From an uncultured Kiloniellaceae bacterium (GTDB lineage Bacteria; Pseudomonadota; Alphaproteobacteria; Kiloniellales; Kiloniellaceae), in contig CANLSF010000006.1 of assembly GCA_947493695.1 (NCBI GenBank), positions 310,001 through 374,000 of the forward strand: a stretch of DNA of 64,000 bases, read 5' to 3'. The notes under the pieces are model-generated. The model saw only the letters and a program-made list of their open reading frames with translations, did no database searches and was not told the origin of the DNA. How positions within the stretch are numbered: the stretch's first letter is position 1; each line of letters starts with the position of its first letter. Position numbers and translations under genes: made by a program. This document shows positions 39,936-48,003 of this stretch, piece after piece.

Positions 39936-40117
39936 CACAGCGTCTTTGCCGAAACTGCGGTACGGGACTGGATATAGATCAGGACATCTGCCCTTCCTGC
40001 GGCACCAAGAATCCGCTGGTCAATCCCTGGTACACCTATCCGCTGGGGGCGCTGATCGTGGCCGTACTCGCTTTCCTGCTGATCGACTTCAACGACATTC
40101 GAAAGCTGTTCGAATAA
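39932..40117 (+). CDS. Small zinc-ribbon membrane protein, 61 aa
   Basis: A 61-residue protein: a zinc ribbon LCRNCGTGL...ICPSCGTKN (two CxxC pairs at ~6-9 and 20-23), then one transmembrane helix (YPLGALIVAVLAFLLIDF) and a short tail. It is coupled to plsC by an ATGA overlap, so it is very likely translated. I do not know its function; the coupling suggests a membrane-lipid or envelope role. Confidence 0.75.
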   Translation: MTQRLCRNCGTGLDIDQDICPSCGTKNPLVNPWYTYPLGALIVAVLAFLLIDFNDIRKLFE

Positions 40118-40128
40118 CGCCGTCTGGA

Positions 40129-40704
40129 TCAGCCGGACGCCTTCGTCTCTATCCGTTCATCGGTCTCACGAAGCAGCTCCGCCAGATATTCATCACGCAG
40201 GCCGAGCGCTTCGAGATGATGAACCGTATTCTGCAGATAATCGCGGCAGGTCCCGCGTTCTCCACGCCCCTGCACGACCAGTTGGACCAACTCTTCGCGC
40301 GGTAGTCGCCCGCTGTATTGCTCATGCTCCGGATCGGCCACGAAGGTGATGGCTGAAACGTTCCCGGTCTCGGTCTCAACACTGTGCCAGCCGGGAAGAT
40401 AAACACCGGTCACCATCTCGCGCTCGTCCAGATACGCCATAACCTCTACGGCTTCGGCGGCCGGGACCCGAAAGACCAATCCCTGGCAGCTGCCGCCCTG
40501 GTCAAGGCCCAGGACCAGCCCGGGGCAGTCAGGTGTCCCACGGTAGCGATGGGAATAGACGCAAAAATGCCTGTGATATCCCTGCAGAAGCCCCGAACGC
40601 ACTTCCACATGCGGAAAGCCGGGATTCCAGATCAGAGATCCATAGGCAAACACCCAGAAGTCCTGTCCTTCAGGAGGACTGAGCGTCTGGCTCCAATCTT
40701 TCAT
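40129..40704 (-). CDS. chaC: ChaC-like gamma-glutamylcyclotransferase
   Basis: A 191-residue cytosolic enzyme of the ChaC family, which degrades glutathione to 5-oxoproline and Cys-Gly. It opens with FWVFAYGSLIWNPGF (the YGSL loop binding the gamma-glutamyl group), then HRYRGTPDCPGLVLGLD and YLDEREMVTGVYLP, whose Glu is the likely catalytic residue. The ATG opening MKDWSQTL is used; 35 upstream codons look like extension. It is convergent with the zinc-ribbon gene, 11 bp away. Confidence 0.9.
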   Translation of the reverse strand: MKDWSQTLSPPEGQDFWVFAYGSLIWNPGFPHVEVRSGLLQGYHRHFCVYSHRYRGTPDCPGLVLGLDQGGSCQGLVFRVPAAEAVEVMAYLDEREMVTGVYLPGWHSVETETGNVSAITFVADPEHEQYSGRLPREELVQLVVQGRGERGTCRDYLQNTVHHLEALGLRDEYLAELLRETDERIETKASG

Positions 40705-40895
40705 TCCGTCAATATCCTCGGCAAATCCGTGCAGGTTGCAGGCCGGTTGGCCATGGAAGCCACGATCCCGCTTTCCCTGGCGGCAAGATCCTGCGTCACG
40801 AAGTATCATACCGGCAGAAAATCTCCGCCGAAAGGCTGGACAAGTAAGACCACTGCCCCGAAGTTAGAAAAACCTCTCCTGAATTGACGAGCTAT

Positions 40896-41930
40896 ATGAC
40901 TGACCCCTCCGTACCTGCCACCAAGAACACCGTCAATCGCCGCCTCATCACCGCTGTAGGCGGCCTGTTTCTTGTGGGTCTGCTCGCAACCGCCTACTGG
41001 CACTGGGCAGCGAGCCAAATTCTGACGGGGCTGGAAAACTGGCGGCAACAGCAGATTGCGCGTGGATTCATCGTAAACTTCGGCAAGCTGGAGTTGACCG
41101 GATATCCCTTGTCACTGGATCTTTCGCTATCCGCGCCGCAGGTCTCCGCGCCCGACGGGCGTTACTGGCAAGGTCCGGCCGTCACAGGCAATGCGGTTCT
41201 CTGGGATCCTTTCACCCTCAACGCAGACATCTCGGGAGAGCACCGGTTCGGTGGTTTTGATCATGCAGGTGAATTTACCGGTCTTGCGCAACAGGCGTCG
41301 CTGCAGGCGCATCTGTCCTTCGACGGCACTCTGAAGCACGCGGTCACTTCTGTAGCAGACGTGGAGTTGCTTTATCAGGATGCACACTTACTGCGGATCG
41401 GGTCTCTGGACGCGGTTGTAGGCCCCTTGCGCCCGGCACAGGGGACCCAACTTCAGGAACTGGATTTCGATGGCTCGGCAAACGGTATCCTTTTGCCTGA
41501 AAACAGCAATGCTCCCTTTGGGAACTTTGTCGAATCTCTGTCTTTGAAAGCCACGGTGCGCGGGCCGCTGCCCGCTAAAAATGTCCGGCAGGCCCTGCCC
41601 ATCTGGCGCGATGCCGGGGGCGAGGCCATCGTGCACAGCGCAGATATCGCCTGGGGACCGATCAACCTTCATGCCAAGGGCGGTGCGAAACTTGATGCTT
41701 ATCTGCGCCCTGAAGGTCAGTTCGGTACGCGCATTTCCGGCTTGAGCGAAGTTCTGAACAGGCTGGTCGAGCGCGGAGAGATCAAGCAGGCGCAGGCCAG
41801 TCTGCTGGGTTTTGCGTTGCTGTCCCTGGGCGGCGGCGACTCACGCAACATCGCCCTGCCGATTTCCATGAAAAATGGTGTTTTAAGCGCCGGACCGGTG
41901 CCGATCGGATCCCTGAGGCCGGTACTCTAG
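40896..41930 (+). CDS. DUF2125 family protein
   Basis: A 344-residue protein with an N-terminal signal anchor (LITAVGGLFLVGLLATAYWH, residues ~16-36) and a long beta-strand-rich exported domain matching DUF2125 (RGFIVNFGKLELTGYPLSLD, PDGRYWQGPAVTGNAVLWDP, VHSADIAWGPINLHAKGGAK). The gene family is confined to Alphaproteobacteria and commonly lies next to tyrC; its function is unknown, but the fold recalls lipid-carrying AsmA/YdbH-like proteins. The ATG at 40896 is used. Confidence 0.85.
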   Translation: MTDPSVPATKNTVNRRLITAVGGLFLVGLLATAYWHWAASQILTGLENWRQQQIARGFIVNFGKLELTGYPLSLDLSLSAPQVSAPDGRYWQGPAVTGNAVLWDPFTLNADISGEHRFGGFDHAGEFTGLAQQASLQAHLSFDGTLKHAVTSVADVELLYQDAHLLRIGSLDAVVGPLRPAQGTQLQELDFDGSANGILLPENSNAPFGNFVESLSLKATVRGPLPAKNVRQALPIWRDAGGEAIVHSADIAWGPINLHAKGGAKLDAYLRPEGQFGTRISGLSEVLNRLVERGEIKQAQASLLGFALLSLGGGDSRNIALPISMKNGVLSAGPVPIGSLRPVL

Positions 41931-41952
41931 ACCAACCTTACAGTACTAGAAC

Positions 41953-42888
41953 TCAATCGTTTGCGGTTGGTTCGCGCGGATCGAAGGTACCCGCCTGCTG
42001 CGCCTCGACAACGCCCTGACGGATTTCGCGGGTTCTGGAGAACAGCGCTTCCAGGGTATCGCCCTCGCCCCAGCGGATCGCGCGCTGCAGCACCGTGATA
42101 TCCTCGCTGAAACGCTGCAGCATCTCCAGTACCGCTTCCCGGTTGTTCAAAAAGACATCGCGCCACATGACCGGATCCGATCCCGCGATACGGGTGAAAT
42201 CCCGAAAACCACCGGCAGAAAATTTAACGACCTCTGCCCGCTCGCTCTCCTCCAGGTCGGTCGCGGTTCCAACAATGGTGTAGGCAATCAAGTGAGGCAG
42301 ATGAGAGGTAATCGCGAGCACTTTGTCGTGGTGGCCCGGCTCCATGACTTCAACCATGCTGCCGCAGCGCTTCCAGAGCTCGGCAACCGCGTCAATCGCA
42401 CCTTGGTCAGCTCCGGGCGGCGGCGTCAGAATGCACCAGCGCCCGTCGAAGAGCTCAGCGAAACCGGCATCCGGACCGGACTTCTCGGTGCCCGCAATTG
42501 GATGCCCGGGGATAAAGTGCACGCCATCGGGCAGATACTGATCTACATCGCGAATGACCGCCTGCTTCACCGATCCAACGTCCGTCACCACCACTCCGGG
42601 TTTCAGATGCGGACCAATCACTGAAGCAATGCTTTCGTAGGTTCCCACCGGCGCACAGAGGATGACCAGATCCGCGGCTTCAACAGCCTCGATCGGGTCA
42701 CTGTGGGCAGTGTCGGCCAGACCAAGTTCCATAACCCGGTCGAGTGTCGCCTGGGAACGGGCTGAAACCGAAATCTGCCGAACGATCCCGCGACTCCGGA
42801 AAGCCCTCGCCAGAGACGAGCCGATCAGGCCAACGCCGATAAGCGCGACCTTCTCAAAAAGAAATTCACTATCCGATTGAACACTCAT
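41953..42888 (-). CDS. tyrC: Prephenate / cyclohexadienyl dehydrogenase
   Basis: A 311-residue NAD(P)-dependent dehydrogenase of the TyrA family that converts prephenate or arogenate toward tyrosine. The nucleotide motif is VALIGVGLIGSSLARAF; other conserved parts are LCAPVGTYESI, DVGSVKQAV, FIPGHPIAGTEKSGP and ITSHLPHLIAYTIV with the catalytic His. It lacks a chorismate mutase fusion. The ATG opening MSVQSDSEF is used; 29 upstream codons are not family-like. It is encoded downstream of hisC on the same strand. Confidence 0.93.
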   Translation of the reverse strand: MSVQSDSEFLFEKVALIGVGLIGSSLARAFRSRGIVRQISVSARSQATLDRVMELGLADTAHSDPIEAVEAADLVILCAPVGTYESIASVIGPHLKPGVVVTDVGSVKQAVIRDVDQYLPDGVHFIPGHPIAGTEKSGPDAGFAELFDGRWCILTPPPGADQGAIDAVAELWKRCGSMVEVMEPGHHDKVLAITSHLPHLIAYTIVGTATDLEESERAEVVKFSAGGFRDFTRIAGSDPVMWRDVFLNNREAVLEMLQRFSEDITVLQRAIRWGEGDTLEALFSRTREIRQGVVEAQQAGTFDPREPTAND

Positions 42889-43006
42889 TCTTAAGCCTGT
42901 TTTTCGTGCGCCCGTCTTACGATTATCGCCCTGGAACCCGTAATTCGAGCCCAAACAAGAGCAGATTAGGCACACACTCTGAAGATCAATTTAAATCTGG
43001 GGCGTG

Positions 43007-44098
43007 TTACTTGAGAAATTTTCCCAAGGCCTCGACGACACTCCGCGTCTCATCCTCAGTCCCAATTGTGACCCTTAAACAATCCGGCAAGCCATAACCG
43101 CCCATCGCCCGCACCAGAATACCGCGGGTCTTCAGATAGGCGAGCGCCGCGTCGGCGGATTTTTCGCCAGGGTCCGGAAAACGTACGAGGGCGAAATTAC
43201 CCACACAATTTCCTGGTTCGACACCGAGCTTGGCGACCTCCTGGTTGAACCATGTCAGCCATTTGGCGTTGTGCTCGACCGAACGCTGGATGTGAGCGGA
43301 ATCTTTAATTGCTTCCACGCCCGCAGCCTGCGCGGCAAGACTGACGTTAAAGGGGCCGCGCAGCCGATTGAGAACATCGGCAACCGCTGGCGGGCAGTAG
43401 GCCCAACCCAGACGCAGGGACGCGAGACCGTGGATCTTGGAAAAGGTCCGCGTCATCACGACGTTTTCGGATTCAGCCACCAGTTCAGCACCGGCGCTGT
43501 AATCGTCTTCGGCTACGTATTCCGCATAGGCCGCGTCAATCACCAACAGAACCGACTCAGGGAGTCCGCGGCGCAAACGGCGCAGTTCCTCAGCCGAAAT
43601 GTAGGTCCCGGTGGGATTGTTCGGATTGGCCACGAAAACCAGTTTGGTTCGGGTCGTCGCCTGCGCGAGAAGTTCGTCAACATCTGTCGTCAGATTATGT
43701 TCCGGAGATGCCACAGGAGTCGCACCCACGGTTTTGGCCGAAATGGGATACATCAGAAAACCGTGCTCGCTGTAGAGCACTTCATCACCCGGTCCGGCAT
43801 AGGCACGCACCAGCAGTGAAATCAGTTCATCCGACCCCGCACCGCAAACGATGCGGTCCTGCTCCAGGCCCTCATTCGCCGCGATGGCATCTCTGAGGTC
43901 GTTGGATCCGCCGTCCGGATAGCGGTGCAGCTCGCCTTGCATCCGGGTGTAGGCTTCGATCGCCTTCGGGCTCGGCCCGAGAGGGTTTTCGTTCGAAGCC
44001 AGACGGATAACGCGGTTAACGCCTTCAGCGGACGCATCGCCGCCGACATAGGGTGAAATGTCCAGAATACCGGGACGCGGCTGTAGTGGTGAATTCAT
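43007..44098 (-). CDS. hisC: Histidinol-phosphate / aromatic aminotransferase
   Basis: A 363-residue class I/II PLP aminotransferase. Family motifs are RLASNENPLGPSPKA, FVANPNNPTGTYIS, VLLVIDAAYAEY and TRTFSKIHGLASLRLGWAY, which holds the PLP lysine. Its position between a chorismate mutase gene and tyrC suggests it serves aromatic amino acid transamination as well as, or instead of, histidine synthesis. Confidence 0.93.
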   Translation of the reverse strand: MNSPLQPRPGILDISPYVGGDASAEGVNRVIRLASNENPLGPSPKAIEAYTRMQGELHRYPDGGSNDLRDAIAANEGLEQDRIVCGAGSDELISLLVRAYAGPGDEVLYSEHGFLMYPISAKTVGATPVASPEHNLTTDVDELLAQATTRTKLVFVANPNNPTGTYISAEELRRLRRGLPESVLLVIDAAYAEYVAEDDYSAGAELVAESENVVMTRTFSKIHGLASLRLGWAYCPPAVADVLNRLRGPFNVSLAAQAAGVEAIKDSAHIQRSVEHNAKWLTWFNQEVAKLGVEPGNCVGNFALVRFPDPGEKSADAALAYLKTRGILVRAMGGYGLPDCLRVTIGTEDETRSVVEALGKFLK

Positions 44099-44109
44099 CG
44101 GCTTTTCAG

Positions 44110-45066
44110 TTACTCAGATCGGCTGGGCTCGTCCGCGCCGTCACTGCTGGCCGCAGGAGCCTTTAATACCATACTTGGATCATTGCTGGTCTGCGCCGCC
44201 GCGGAAGCACCATCAGCACCTAAATCCATAGGTACCGCATAGCCACCCGCTGCCCAGACCCAGGCAATCTTGCCTTCGTTCTCTTCCTTCAGACGAACCA
44301 GACGGGCATCCTCCGGTCCGACAAATCCCATGACCTCAACAAGATGCATCGGCGAGCCCGGCTCACGGTCGGGGGTCTGCACGTCGGCAGTCTCCATACC
44401 AACATTGACGAAAAGCGAGCGAATACCGCTGCGCGACATCTCCTCAGTCGTCTCAACGATCACATAACTGCGGTCGTCGCCGGTATCTTCCTGAGGGACA
44501 AAACTGATGGTCAGGGCTTCAACCCGGTTCCGGCTGGAGGCATCGGTCTTGGTGAAAGGCAACTTTGCCGTTACACGCGGCGCATCTTCAAAATCACGGG
44601 CAAGATACCGCCACCAGTTCTCACTGTCTTCCGACTGCGGAACCGGCAGGACACCAGCCGTCGCGCGGCGATCGGACACCGCCCGCATCACGCCCGAAAC
44701 CGTTCCATAGCTTGAAATCGGCGTCAAAGCGCCAAAGTGGTCCCGCGCCAGGGTATAAAGATCCGGATCGTGCTCGGGCGCGTAGACGGCGATGCTGAGA
44801 TCGCCCTGCAGGGTGGTCGCACTGGAAAAAATCTCGCGCCAGACCCGCACAACGGCCGCCTTGGGTAAAACGCCCTTATGGCGTTCCACGAGTCGGCGCA
44901 GAACCTGAGCTTCACGGCCAGGGCGCAGGTACACGGCGCCAGGCCCCTTGGCTTTACCGACCTCTTCCGCAATTTCTGTGCGACGGATCAGCAGATCATG
45001 GATTTCTGTATCGATTTGATCGATTTGAGCACGGAGTTTGCCCAGCGTATCTGCGTTATCTGACAT
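44110..45066 (-). CDS. Chorismate mutase with divergent prephenate-dehydratase-like region
   Basis: A 318-residue protein. Residues ~10-90 form an AroQ-type chorismate mutase (LRAQIDQIDTEIHDLLIRR, YLRPGREAQVLRRLVERHKG, VRVWREIFSS). The following ~190 residues are laid out like a prephenate dehydratase plus ACT domain (GVMRAVSDRRATAGVLPVPQ, then GFVGPEDARLVRL), but the dehydratase hallmark TRF is absent and the equivalent segment reads RNRVEALTISF. The last ~30 residues are Ala/Ser-rich. I used the ATG opening MSDNADTLG. The second domain may be regulatory rather than catalytic. It lies 11 bp upstream of hisC, so they form an operon. Confidence 0.82.
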   Translation of the reverse strand: MSDNADTLGKLRAQIDQIDTEIHDLLIRRTEIAEEVGKAKGPGAVYLRPGREAQVLRRLVERHKGVLPKAAVVRVWREIFSSATTLQGDLSIAVYAPEHDPDLYTLARDHFGALTPISSYGTVSGVMRAVSDRRATAGVLPVPQSEDSENWWRYLARDFEDAPRVTAKLPFTKTDASSRNRVEALTISFVPQEDTGDDRSYVIVETTEEMSRSGIRSLFVNVGMETADVQTPDREPGSPMHLVEVMGFVGPEDARLVRLKEENEGKIAWVWAAGGYAVPMDLGADGASAAAQTSNDPSMVLKAPAASSDGADEPSRSE

Positions 45067-45152
45067 AGGACCTATCGGCGAAGGGACTGGCGAGCCAAAA
45101 GAAATAGTCGCAGGACCGCACAAAAGCAAAGAAAACATCGTACAAGAAAGCG

Positions 45153-45182
45153 TTGACAGGACGCCCGTCCCGCCAATAGCTA
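45153..45182 (+). promoter_or_regulatory. Candidate metX promoter
   Basis: A perfect TTGACA (45153-45158) is followed after 18 bp by TAGCTA (45177-45182), about 55 bp before the metX ATG. The -10 match is weak. I see no SAM riboswitch in this leader. Confidence 0.35.
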
Positions 45183-45237
45183 TGCACTCCCTGCTATAGG
45201 GTTGAAAAGACAAGACTTGGCGGCAAGACTGGGCAGT

Positions 45238-46413
45238 ATGACAAAGGGTGAAATATCACCGGCGCTTGAGGCCGAAAACCATGACCTTCCCGGCCATCGG
45301 GTCGAGTTGGGTCATGACGAGCCTTTGCAACTCGATTGCGGCGTTGAATTGGGCCCTTTTACGGTCGCCTATCAGACTTACGGCGCACTCAACGCCGACC
45401 GCAGCAATGCCATTCTGGTCTGTCATGCGCTGACCGGCGATCAATTCATGACCGGCGAGCACCCGGTCACGGGCAAGCCCGGCTGGTGGCAACAGCTTGT
45501 CGGACCGGGCCTGGTCCTCGATACGGATCGCTTTTTTCTGATCTGCAGCAATGTGGTCGGCGGTTGTCTGGGCACAACCGGTCCAAAATCGATAAATCCC
45601 GAGACCGGCCAGCCCTGGGGTCTCGACTTTCCGGTCATCACGATCGGCGACATGGTACGTGCGCAGCGTCAGCTGATCGATCACCTGAAGATCGACAAGC
45701 TCTTTTGCGTGATCGGTGGCTCCATGGGGGGTATGCAGGTCCTTGAATGGGCGTCGTCCTACCCCGAGCGGGTCTATGCCGCCGTCCCACTCGCCACCGC
45801 GGCCCGGCATACGGCCCAGAACATTGCATTCCACGAAGTCGGGCGGCAGGCCATCATGGCCGACCCGGACTGGCATGGCGGCAAGTACCATGAATTCGGC
45901 AAGACTCCGCGCGCAGGACTTTCCGTCGCGCGCATGACCGCCCACATCACCTATCTTTCCGAACCTGCACTTCACCGCAAGTTCGGACGACGCCTGCAGG
46001 ACCGCAAAAAGCTGACCTACGGATTCGATGCTGACTTCCAGGTTGAGAGTTATCTGCGGCATCAGGGCTACTCCTTCGTCGAGCGTTTCGACGCCAACTC
46101 TTATCTCTACATCACGCGGGCCATGGATTACTTCGACCTGGCCAGTGAACACGACGGCGTCCTGGCCAATGCCTTCAAAGACACACCGGTCCGCTTCTGC
46201 ATCATCTCCTTCACCAGCGACTGGCTCTTTCCAACCAGTGAGAACCGCGATGTCGTTCATGCGCTTAATGCTGTGGCCGCGGATGTCAGCTTTGTGGAAA
46301 TCGAGAGCGATGCGGGACACGACGCCTTCCTTCTCGACGAACCTGATTTCCGTAACACCCTGCGCGGATTCCTGAACGGTTGCGCCGAACGCCTGGGGGT
46401 CTTCGTAGAATGA
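45238..46413 (+). CDS. metX: Homoserine O-acyltransferase MetX
   Basis: A 391-residue alpha/beta hydrolase-fold enzyme that activates homoserine for methionine synthesis. Conserved parts are [40 protein letters not shown], the nucleophile [13 protein letters not shown], the acid region FTSDWLFP and the catalytic His in SDAGHDAFL. Acetyl or succinyl specificity is not assigned. The ATG opening [10 protein letters not shown] is used; an in-frame TTG 12 codons upstream is possible. The stop overlaps the metW start (ATGA). Confidence 0.94.
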
Positions 46414-47075
46414 GCCCGGATCAAGGTTTCCCCGCGAACGCATCAGCTGCGCCGGATGCTTCCGAACAACCGAAGCTCCGGGCGGATCTTCTGCTGATAT
46501 CGGACATGGTCGAAAAGGCTTCGCGCGTGCTGGACATCGGCTGCGAGGACGGCGCGCTGCTGGAGTATCTGGGTCGCGAAAAACAGGTGACGGGCCGCGG
46601 AATTGAGTTATCTCAGGCCGGTGTGAACGCCTGTGTCGCACGAGGACTATCCGTTATTCAGGGAGACGCGGATACCGATCTGGTCAACTATCCCGACGAC
46701 GCCTTCGATTATGCCGTCCTCAGTCAGACTCTGCAGGCGGTGCGCGCACCCCATCTCGTGCTGCAACAGCTTGCCCGGATCGGCCAGCGGGCGATCGTAT
46801 CTTTCCCGAACTTCGGCTACTGGAAAGTCAGGCGCCGCCTGCTTCTGCGCGGACGCATGCCGGTGACCAAGGTCTTGCCGGACCAATGGTACGAAACACC
46901 CAACATCCACCTCTGCACGATCCGGGATTTTCTGATTCTCTGTGAAGAGTTGAACATCGAAGTGGAAAAGTCGCTCATCCTCGATGAAAGTGGCCGGGTC
47001 ACTATGGCGCGCTCCCTATGGCTGGCCAATCTGGTCGGCCAGCAGGCGATCTTCCTGCTCCGACGGAAAGCTTAG
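46410..47075 (+). CDS. metW: Methionine biosynthesis protein MetW
   Basis: A 221-residue methyltransferase-fold protein. Motif I is [15 protein letters not shown]; other MetW features are [39 protein letters not shown] and [15 protein letters not shown]. MetW pairs with MetX in Alphaproteobacteria and is thought to stimulate homoserine acylation. Translational coupling to metX by an ATGA overlap supports this. Confidence 0.94.
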
Positions 47076-47092
47076 CCGACCTGCTTCTCGCG

Positions 47093-47830
47093 TTAAGTCC
47101 GATCCCGTCGCGCGACCTGCGGGATCTGAACCACCCTTGGCCGACGGACTTTGATCCTTTGGCGACTGGGACTGGCCGCATAGAGTTGCTTGCCTGCTTC
47201 AATCATCACCACGCCCGAGAAAGTCGGGAACCAGCGCCCTCCCATCCGCTCCCAGGCAGGGGCCGAGCGCAAGAGGGTATTGGATCGGGTCGGCGGCACG
47301 TACAGCGCCCGTCCGCTTCGCAGAGGCATGAACTGGTTCTGACGCAGCAGCTTCGAGAGTTGGGCCTGCGTATAGGGATGCCCCCAGCCAAGCGGTGTGC
47401 GGTCACTTCGAGCCCAGATTCCCCGCCGATTTGGCACGACCACCAGAAGGCGCCCTTCGCCGGTCAGCACCCGCCAGACTTCATGCAGCATGTCACGCAG
47501 GTATTCTGTGCTCTCGACCCCATGAACCAGCAACACCCGGTCCACTGAGTAGTCCGGCAGTGGCAGTTCGGTTTCGTCCACCAGCGACACCACACTGGGG
47601 CCTTCAGGGGGCCAGTGATGCACGCCTTGAGAGGCCGGCATAAAGGCGATCAGCCGCTCGCATTCCTCTTTGAACACGCGCAGATAGGGCGTTGAATACC
47701 CGAGTCCGACCAGGCTCTGGCCATGCAGGTCCGGCCACATGGAACGGATGCCCCGCCGGACCATATGCCGGGCCGTCTGACCGACCTTGGACTCGTAAAA
47801 CTCTCTTAAATCAACAACATCTGTCCACAT
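47093..47830 (-). CDS. Class I SAM-dependent methyltransferase
   Basis: A 245-residue protein of the family beginning MWTDVVDLREFYESKVGQTA. The SAM-binding glycine motif is degenerate (LVGLGYSTPYL), followed by acidic and post-motif segments PDYSVDRVLLVHGVE and LLVVVPNRRGIWARSD. A basic tail follows. This family is often beside glyoxalase II genes in Alphaproteobacteria; the substrate is unknown. The internal ATG at 47830 is the family start. It is convergent with metW. Confidence 0.8.
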   Translation of the reverse strand: MWTDVVDLREFYESKVGQTARHMVRRGIRSMWPDLHGQSLVGLGYSTPYLRVFKEECERLIAFMPASQGVHHWPPEGPSVVSLVDETELPLPDYSVDRVLLVHGVESTEYLRDMLHEVWRVLTGEGRLLVVVPNRRGIWARSDRTPLGWGHPYTQAQLSKLLRQNQFMPLRSGRALYVPPTRSNTLLRSAPAWERMGGRWFPTFSGVVMIEAGKQLYAASPSRQRIKVRRPRVVQIPQVARRDRT

Positions 47831-48003
47831 GATGCGCAAAAGATACCACAGTTGCCGCGATAAGCTATAGGCGCGATCAGTGGCAAGCCTGTATGGCCGA
47901 CGCAAAGAGTCTTTTAGATTGCATAACTGCGCGGCGGCCCTAATCTTGCTTCGCTTCACAATCGCGCTTTCCGCGAAGAATCCACAACGGGAGTTCCTGC
48001 GCT

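Follow-up and report, generated by a model that had tools for sequence, protein, structure and literature searches.

A chorismate mutase carrying a probable prephenate dehydratase remnant at the presumed ancestral aroQ-pheA site of Alphaproteobacteria

The gene on the minus strand at 45066-44110 of the window (the whole 64,000-nucleotide stretch of Kiloniellaceae DNA analysed here) appears to be an aroQ-pheA gene that has been kept at its ancestral site, and whose dehydratase has lost its second lobe together with its catalytic residues, the leftover being a non-catalytic module attached to the mutase. We give this reading as a whole a probability of about 0.75. The gene is a single open frame of 318 amino acids plus stop, and its features, together with those of the two genes following it, are listed below.

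44803-45066, minus strand: AroQ-type chorismate mutase domain of the P-protein subtype, residues 1-88 (CM_2, TIGR01807, active-site residues)
44545-44802, minus strand: residues 89-174, putatively what is left of dehydratase lobe 1, including the W151-W152 helix and an LPF strand (BLASTP to the P-protein L035, profile alignment, predicted strand-helix order)
44611-44616, minus strand: W151-W152, invariant in 58 of 58 aligned members (alignment)
44527-44544, minus strand: short turn, residues 175-180, the presumed site of the missing lobe 2 (predicted hairpin 165-174/181-189)
44500-44532, minus strand: RNRVEALTISF, residues 179-189, at the position of the TRF strand (alignments with P-proteins)
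44227-44475, minus strand: ACT-like domain, residues 198-280, without the ESRP motif (profile match of residues 172-318, predicted topology)
44110-44226, minus strand: low-confidence, probably disordered tail, residues 281-318, plus stop (pLDDT < 40)
43007-44098, minus strand: hisC-type aminotransferase, next gene of the operon after an 11-base gap (TIGR01141, 309.7 bits)
41953-42975, minus strand: prephenate/arogenate dehydrogenase tyrA, third gene of the operon (NF005694, 483.2 bits)

The mutase domain and the supply of prephenate

Judging from sequence, a complete AroQ chorismate mutase of the kind found in P-proteins (aroQ-pheA) occupies residues 1-88. The Pfam model CM_2 (PF01817) matches residues 11-87 with an E-value of 6.9e-19 and 68.3 bits against a curated cut-off of 27, and the model for the mutase domain of the P-protein branch, TIGR01807 CM_P2, scores 76 bits, likewise above its cut-off of 69.55. 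Furthermore, all six predicted active-site residues are present (R12, R29, K40, R51, E52 and Q87), the equivalents of which in the E. coli mutase we take to be R11, R28, K39, R51, E52 and Q88, and the description of the N-terminal mutase as canonical in an earlier note on this DNA is thus borne out by both models and by the active site. The position of E. coli D48 falls in a gap in the window protein and that of S84 is occupied by alanine; six P-proteins used for comparison also lack D48 and have serine or cysteine at the S84 position. Across 58 aligned members of the family the positions of R11, R28, R51 and E52 are unvaried, that of K39 is lysine in 56 and asparagine in two, and that of Q88 is glutamine in 47, glutamate in nine and glycine in two. 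Two relatives, L022 and L025, have asparagine at the K39 position with the remaining family signature intact. Searching the PDB by sequence gave a convincing result for the mutase part alone, and a scan of viral contigs returned one short mutase match.

Among 34 genomes of the class, a non-random set hand-picked for carrying the gene and in many cases near-complete, 25 have no PF01817 match besides this gene, eight have more and one (G319) has none, and no AroH-type (PF07736) match above cut-off was found in those 25 genomes or in the window genome, a single one in G199 lying below it. In many Alphaproteobacteria the gene would consequently seem to be the sole chorismate mutase, although the 25 include G199, where the C-terminal part is missing, and G330, where mutase residues are changed. 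The window genome does encode a second, stand-alone AroQ mutase of 98 amino acids (L040), and the gene therefore need not be the sole source of prephenate there. As for the step from prephenate to phenylalanine, the earlier note had argued that another dehydratase would be needed and had proposed a search for a separate pheA, and such a gene was indeed found in the window genome in the form of a complete dehydratase of 290 amino acids with the NTTRF motif (C2:980505-981032, 190.8 bits for PDT). A PDT match is likewise present in 40 of 41 relatives, the exception being a genome that is 77% complete, and in 31 of the 34 class genomes, where the exceptions (G330, G319 and G242) are genomes of 0.9-1.3 Mb.

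A probable dehydratase domain apparently without its second lobe

The part of the protein following the mutase is not recognised by Pfam, since neither PDT nor ACT matched the window protein, and even at a loose threshold PDT was found in just 3 of 24 members (best E 0.0086) and ACT in none of the 24. With BLASTP, residues 7-145 match the canonical P-protein L035, located in a Verrucomicrobiota contig, at E 2.6e-21, a match that extends over mutase and linker and on through the first half of lobe 1, the C-terminal part by itself giving a weak 0.014. Comparing a profile of the 58 members to one of 31 P-proteins, residues 1-280 are collinear with the latter over 275 columns at E 4.2e-36; the C-terminal part alone matches at 1.9e-6 and residues 172-318 alone match the TRF-ACT end of the P-proteins at 2.5e-7, all of these being E-values of single comparisons. 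Loci duplicating the window gene or L032-L034 were left out before alignment, alignment A1 holding 24 of the 30 remaining sequences and A4 22. P-proteins gave a full-length alignment where the stand-alone dehydratases of Alphaproteobacteria did not, the latter yielding a local match of 40 columns (probability 27%, E 7e-4) and no global alignment.

As an independent check, a profile of the C-terminal part, built without any P-protein, was searched in 398 genomes of the phylum and matched in 67, of which 49 lie inside the class and 18 outside it. All of the 18 outside matches (E 4.8e-6 to 9.8e-4) share an open frame of 362-515 amino acids with the CM_P2 match of the same genome, which in size and order is as would be expected of P-proteins; 14 are situated just behind the mutase, at lobe 1 (within profile positions 2-59), and four at the end of the frame (from profile positions 64, 71, 79 or 93 onwards). 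We read this as both C-terminal pieces probably being homologous to the P-protein, with the middle missing.

In the following, TRF, ESRP, TG.D(K/R) and IENS-like denote what we take to be the dehydratase and ACT motifs, ESRP and GAL-type residues presumably making up the Phe site of P-proteins. The RNRVEALTISF segment aligns on the NNTTRFLVIS segment of P-proteins with V-E-A opposite T-R-F, so that the TRF motif is absent from the window protein, and the view of the earlier note that the C-terminal region is of PDT/ACT layout without TRF holds up well. In the merged alignment ESRP is gone as well, and the TG.D(K/R) segment ahead of the ACT domain is retained. The loss is however larger than the replacement of one segment in an otherwise intact PDT/ACT layout, as had been supposed, since about 80 residues, which we read as an entire lobe, are gone between the IENS-like and TRF segments in the merged alignment with P-proteins, and the window protein, in which PF00800 finds no match, is short of a complete two-lobed PDT domain by this same stretch. 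The lengths are 360-369 amino acids for P-proteins (30 loci) and 275-318 for family members with trimmed starts, and the tail of residues 281-318 is missing or different in many relatives. In PDT structures lobe 2 lies between two strands, and if these are the strands of residues 165-174 and 181-189, then without it lobe 1 would be closed off by a short turn. The missing stretch would hence be lobe 2 and the cut would lie at the turn of residues 175-180, although the gaps of the merged alignment are scattered over residues 148-180, where the alignments disagree on its exact place. A P-protein match across model positions 172-253 is found in none of 30 divergent loci, and no intermediate between the P-protein and the lobe-less form occurs among the 88 sequences inspected.

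Structure prediction, which the earlier note had proposed as a comparison with PDT, agrees in part. With L035 in the alignment, the model shows strand-helix-strand-helix-strand-helix, the hairpin 165-174/181-189 and then the ACT order, and it is only in this model (pLDDT 61, pTM 0.40) that the lobe remnant takes the PDT fold. In the control model without L035 the ACT part alone is confident and the lobe remnant falls below a pLDDT of 50. The strand-helix-strand-strand-helix-strand order of ACT is predicted both with and without the P-protein, and the domain would accordingly be an ACT domain by topology that lacks the ESRP Phe-binding motif. All 11 Foldseek hits at E <= 0.001 for the model containing L035 are PDT or GqqA entries, and the first eight rows from VIA (Z 9.4-11.7, rmsd 7.9-9.4; best unrelated Z 8.2) are 3luy, an entry with the title putative chorismate mutase, and seven that belong to PDT or GqqA, but these neighbours are partly built in by the one true P-protein. 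For the control model no Foldseek hit reached E <= 0.001; the top one, a PDT, stood at 0.011 in the company of ACT-fold and RRM proteins. GqqA and the monofunctional prephenate dehydratases to which Foldseek and VIA relate the predicted C-terminal part (7alz, 7am0, 2qmw, 6vh5) differ from the window family in that, as we understand them, they keep both lobes.

A dehydratase function is thus not to be expected of the window protein on the basis of its sequence. That it should nonetheless still work as a bifunctional P-protein, its dehydratase site having diverged, is suggested by its CM-PDT-ACT-like layout, but this is scarcely credible, since the lobe-2 stretch is gone in the 58 aligned members as well as in the 30 divergent ones and since the separate pheA is present. 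A new catalytic activity of the C-terminal part on another aromatic compound, also raised in the earlier note, might be thought to agree with the invariant polar residues and the WW motif, but it finds no support, as the two-lobed cleft around the dehydratase active site seems to be gone, and a non-systematic look brought up no added catalytic motif; we regard it as very improbable.

Genomic context, selection and the role of the remnant

The order of the operon is that of its presumed ancestor, as aroQ-pheA sits before hisC and tyrA in beta- and upper gammaproteobacteria according to a 2005 survey (PMC1173090). Conservation of the neighbourhood was followed in 23 loci, three named and 20 hand-picked from the class for carrying the gene, a non-random set with many near-complete genomes. 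hisC directly follows the gene in 22 of them and is about 1 kb away in L147, and tyrA is found in 21, one of the others being a contig that ends and one being without tyrA in range; the tyrA match of L146 is weak (5.6e-16). Ten loci of divergent members are more varied: three keep mutase, hisC and tyrA, one has a mutase-HisC fusion followed by tyrA, one keeps tyrA alone, and five keep neither, L190 among these being cut by the contig end. The nearest named relatives are Denitrobaculum tricleocarpae, which belongs to the Alphaproteobacteria, a Pelagibius strain and an uncultured Kiloniellaceae genome, and their contig positions coincide with those of same-genus genomes. The gene is present in 40 of 41 relatives, and the full family profile matches 261 of 385 class genomes at E <= 0.001, although 42 of the 261, counted by hand, have an E-value above 1e-20 and could be mutase only, without the C-terminal part. 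Among the matches listed for the C-terminal profile, several families of the class are absent, and outright loss probably happened there. The best-matching named family is NCBIfam PRK06034.1, "hypothetical protein", which matches 24 of 24 members and whose model descriptions give no function; at 120.9 bits the window protein remains far below the 349-bit cut-off of that model and the 311-413 bits of the four models in question, and it is, by these scores, homologous to PRK06034 without being a member.

Within the genus the leftover part bears the mark of strong purifying selection. Between the window and three relatives from the genus, Nei-Gojobori dN/dS comes to 0.014-0.024 for residues 89-190 (the lobe remnant), 0.025-0.063 for residues 191-280 (ACT) and 0.018-0.079 for the mutase, values that are rough in that dS exceeds 0.7 in all pairs but one and, in one comparison of each C-terminal region, is saturated and gives no ratio. 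In addition to the two tryptophans, L169, P170, D198 and S211 are invariant in all 58 members, and E244 (57 of 58) and R255 (56 of 58) in or near the ACT part are nearly so. That the C-terminal part is now functionless and in decay could be argued from its erosion in several divergent or reduced genomes and from its complete loss in L184. The low dN/dS, no less constraining than that of the mutase, and the invariant residues argue strongly against a relic in the clade of the window, however, as does the retention of the gene in nearly all relatives, and decay seems highly unlikely there.

Many divergent members keep the ACT part poorly, which speaks against the favoured reading, and a few members depart from the common form altogether. 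In G330 (1.1 Mb; L181:4782-5642), a genome without a PDT match, the protein is otherwise full length and four of the six mutase residues are changed, with E, R, Y and Y at the positions of R11, K39, R51 and Q88, which makes the mutase probably inactive; no match to hisC or tyrA was found in the 10 kb surrounding this locus. In G319 (0.9 Mb; L183:3322-3999) the C-terminal part occurs alone, without a mutase domain, beside a T2SSE secretion ATPase and BatD-like genes, in a genome that matches neither CM_2 (PF01817) nor PDT (PF00800). Conversely, in G199 (L184:2686-4092) the mutase is fused directly to HisC and the dehydratase/ACT part is lost, with tyrA next and the genes divergent from metX-metW. 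Two of the 30 divergent loci are special, L174 having no C-terminal part and L180 no mutase. That the C-terminal part outlives the mutase or its active site in G330 and G319 hints at a role beyond the mutase, these being single cases in small genomes.

We thus favour the reading in which aroQ-pheA stayed before hisC and tyrA in Alphaproteobacteria and its dehydratase domain was gutted in place. The mutase would then supply prephenate both to the operon's own TyrA and to the separate PheA, and the leftover lobe-ACT part may, with less certainty, be a non-catalytic module setting the activity or assembly of the mutase, be it through a ligand site unlike the one for Phe in P-proteins or as a holder of neighbouring enzymes. 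Amino acid binding and dimerisation are common among ACT domains, for which reason an allosteric or assembly module is proposed, and a regulatory role of the C-terminal part, as the earlier note had considered, is plausible. The alternative that it serves purely to link parts of the structure or to hold dimers, or binds HisC or TyrA, with no ligand sensing, is a serious one that we nonetheless hold to be short of probable; it accords with the loss of ESRP and of the GAL-type Phe-site residues, with the conserved linkage to hisC and tyrA and with the direct joining of mutase and HisC in L184, but agrees poorly with an ACT topology that is kept and constrained and with the conserved D198, S211, E244 and R255, which form a candidate new site. 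A more specific and still more tentative version of the favoured reading is that the half-lobe with the WW helix and the ACT domain together form a new sensing or assembly unit that moved the mutase from control by Phe to the Tyr branch, since the gene heads hisC-tyrA, and that can act without mutase chemistry, in view of G330 and G319.

The closest known system is the P-protein (aroQ-pheA, the TIGR01807 CM_P2 branch), with which the window family shares the mutase subtype, the linker, the first half of lobe 1, the region of the TRF strand, the TGxD(K/R) segment before ACT, the ACT topology and the place before hisC and tyrA, and from which it differs in lacking the roughly 80 residues of the putative lobe 2, TRF and ESRP and in having the invariant WW helix. 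A chorismate mutase of Mycobacterium, reported to be activated by DAHP synthase (PMC4281200, PMC7762937), resembles the proposed arrangement in being an AroQ mutase that relies for its activity on a further protein part, but its partner is a separate protein, whereas that of the window protein would be a covalent leftover domain. Among the matches listed in the literature searched, whose coverage excludes most subscription journals, no description of a mutase with a gutted dehydratase was found. If correct, our reading would amend the statement of the 2005 survey that the alphaproteobacterial ancestor lost aroQ-pheA (PMC1173090), in that the gene stayed and half of one domain was lost; it would furthermore explain a widespread family annotated as hypothetical and provide a natural case of an enzyme domain turned into a non-catalytic module through the loss of a lobe.

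Upstream of the gene, positions 45066-45238 form a divergent region between the mutase operon and metX-metW. metX is divergent in 16 of the 23 loci, in which this neighbourhood is kept, and the methionine and aromatic genes may share control; no Rfam family was found at gathering scores in 40000-48000. At the other end of the operon, the tyrA frame at 42975 opens with a GTG about 30 codons ahead of an ATG (MSVQSDSEF), and the real start of tyrA therefore probably lies downstream.
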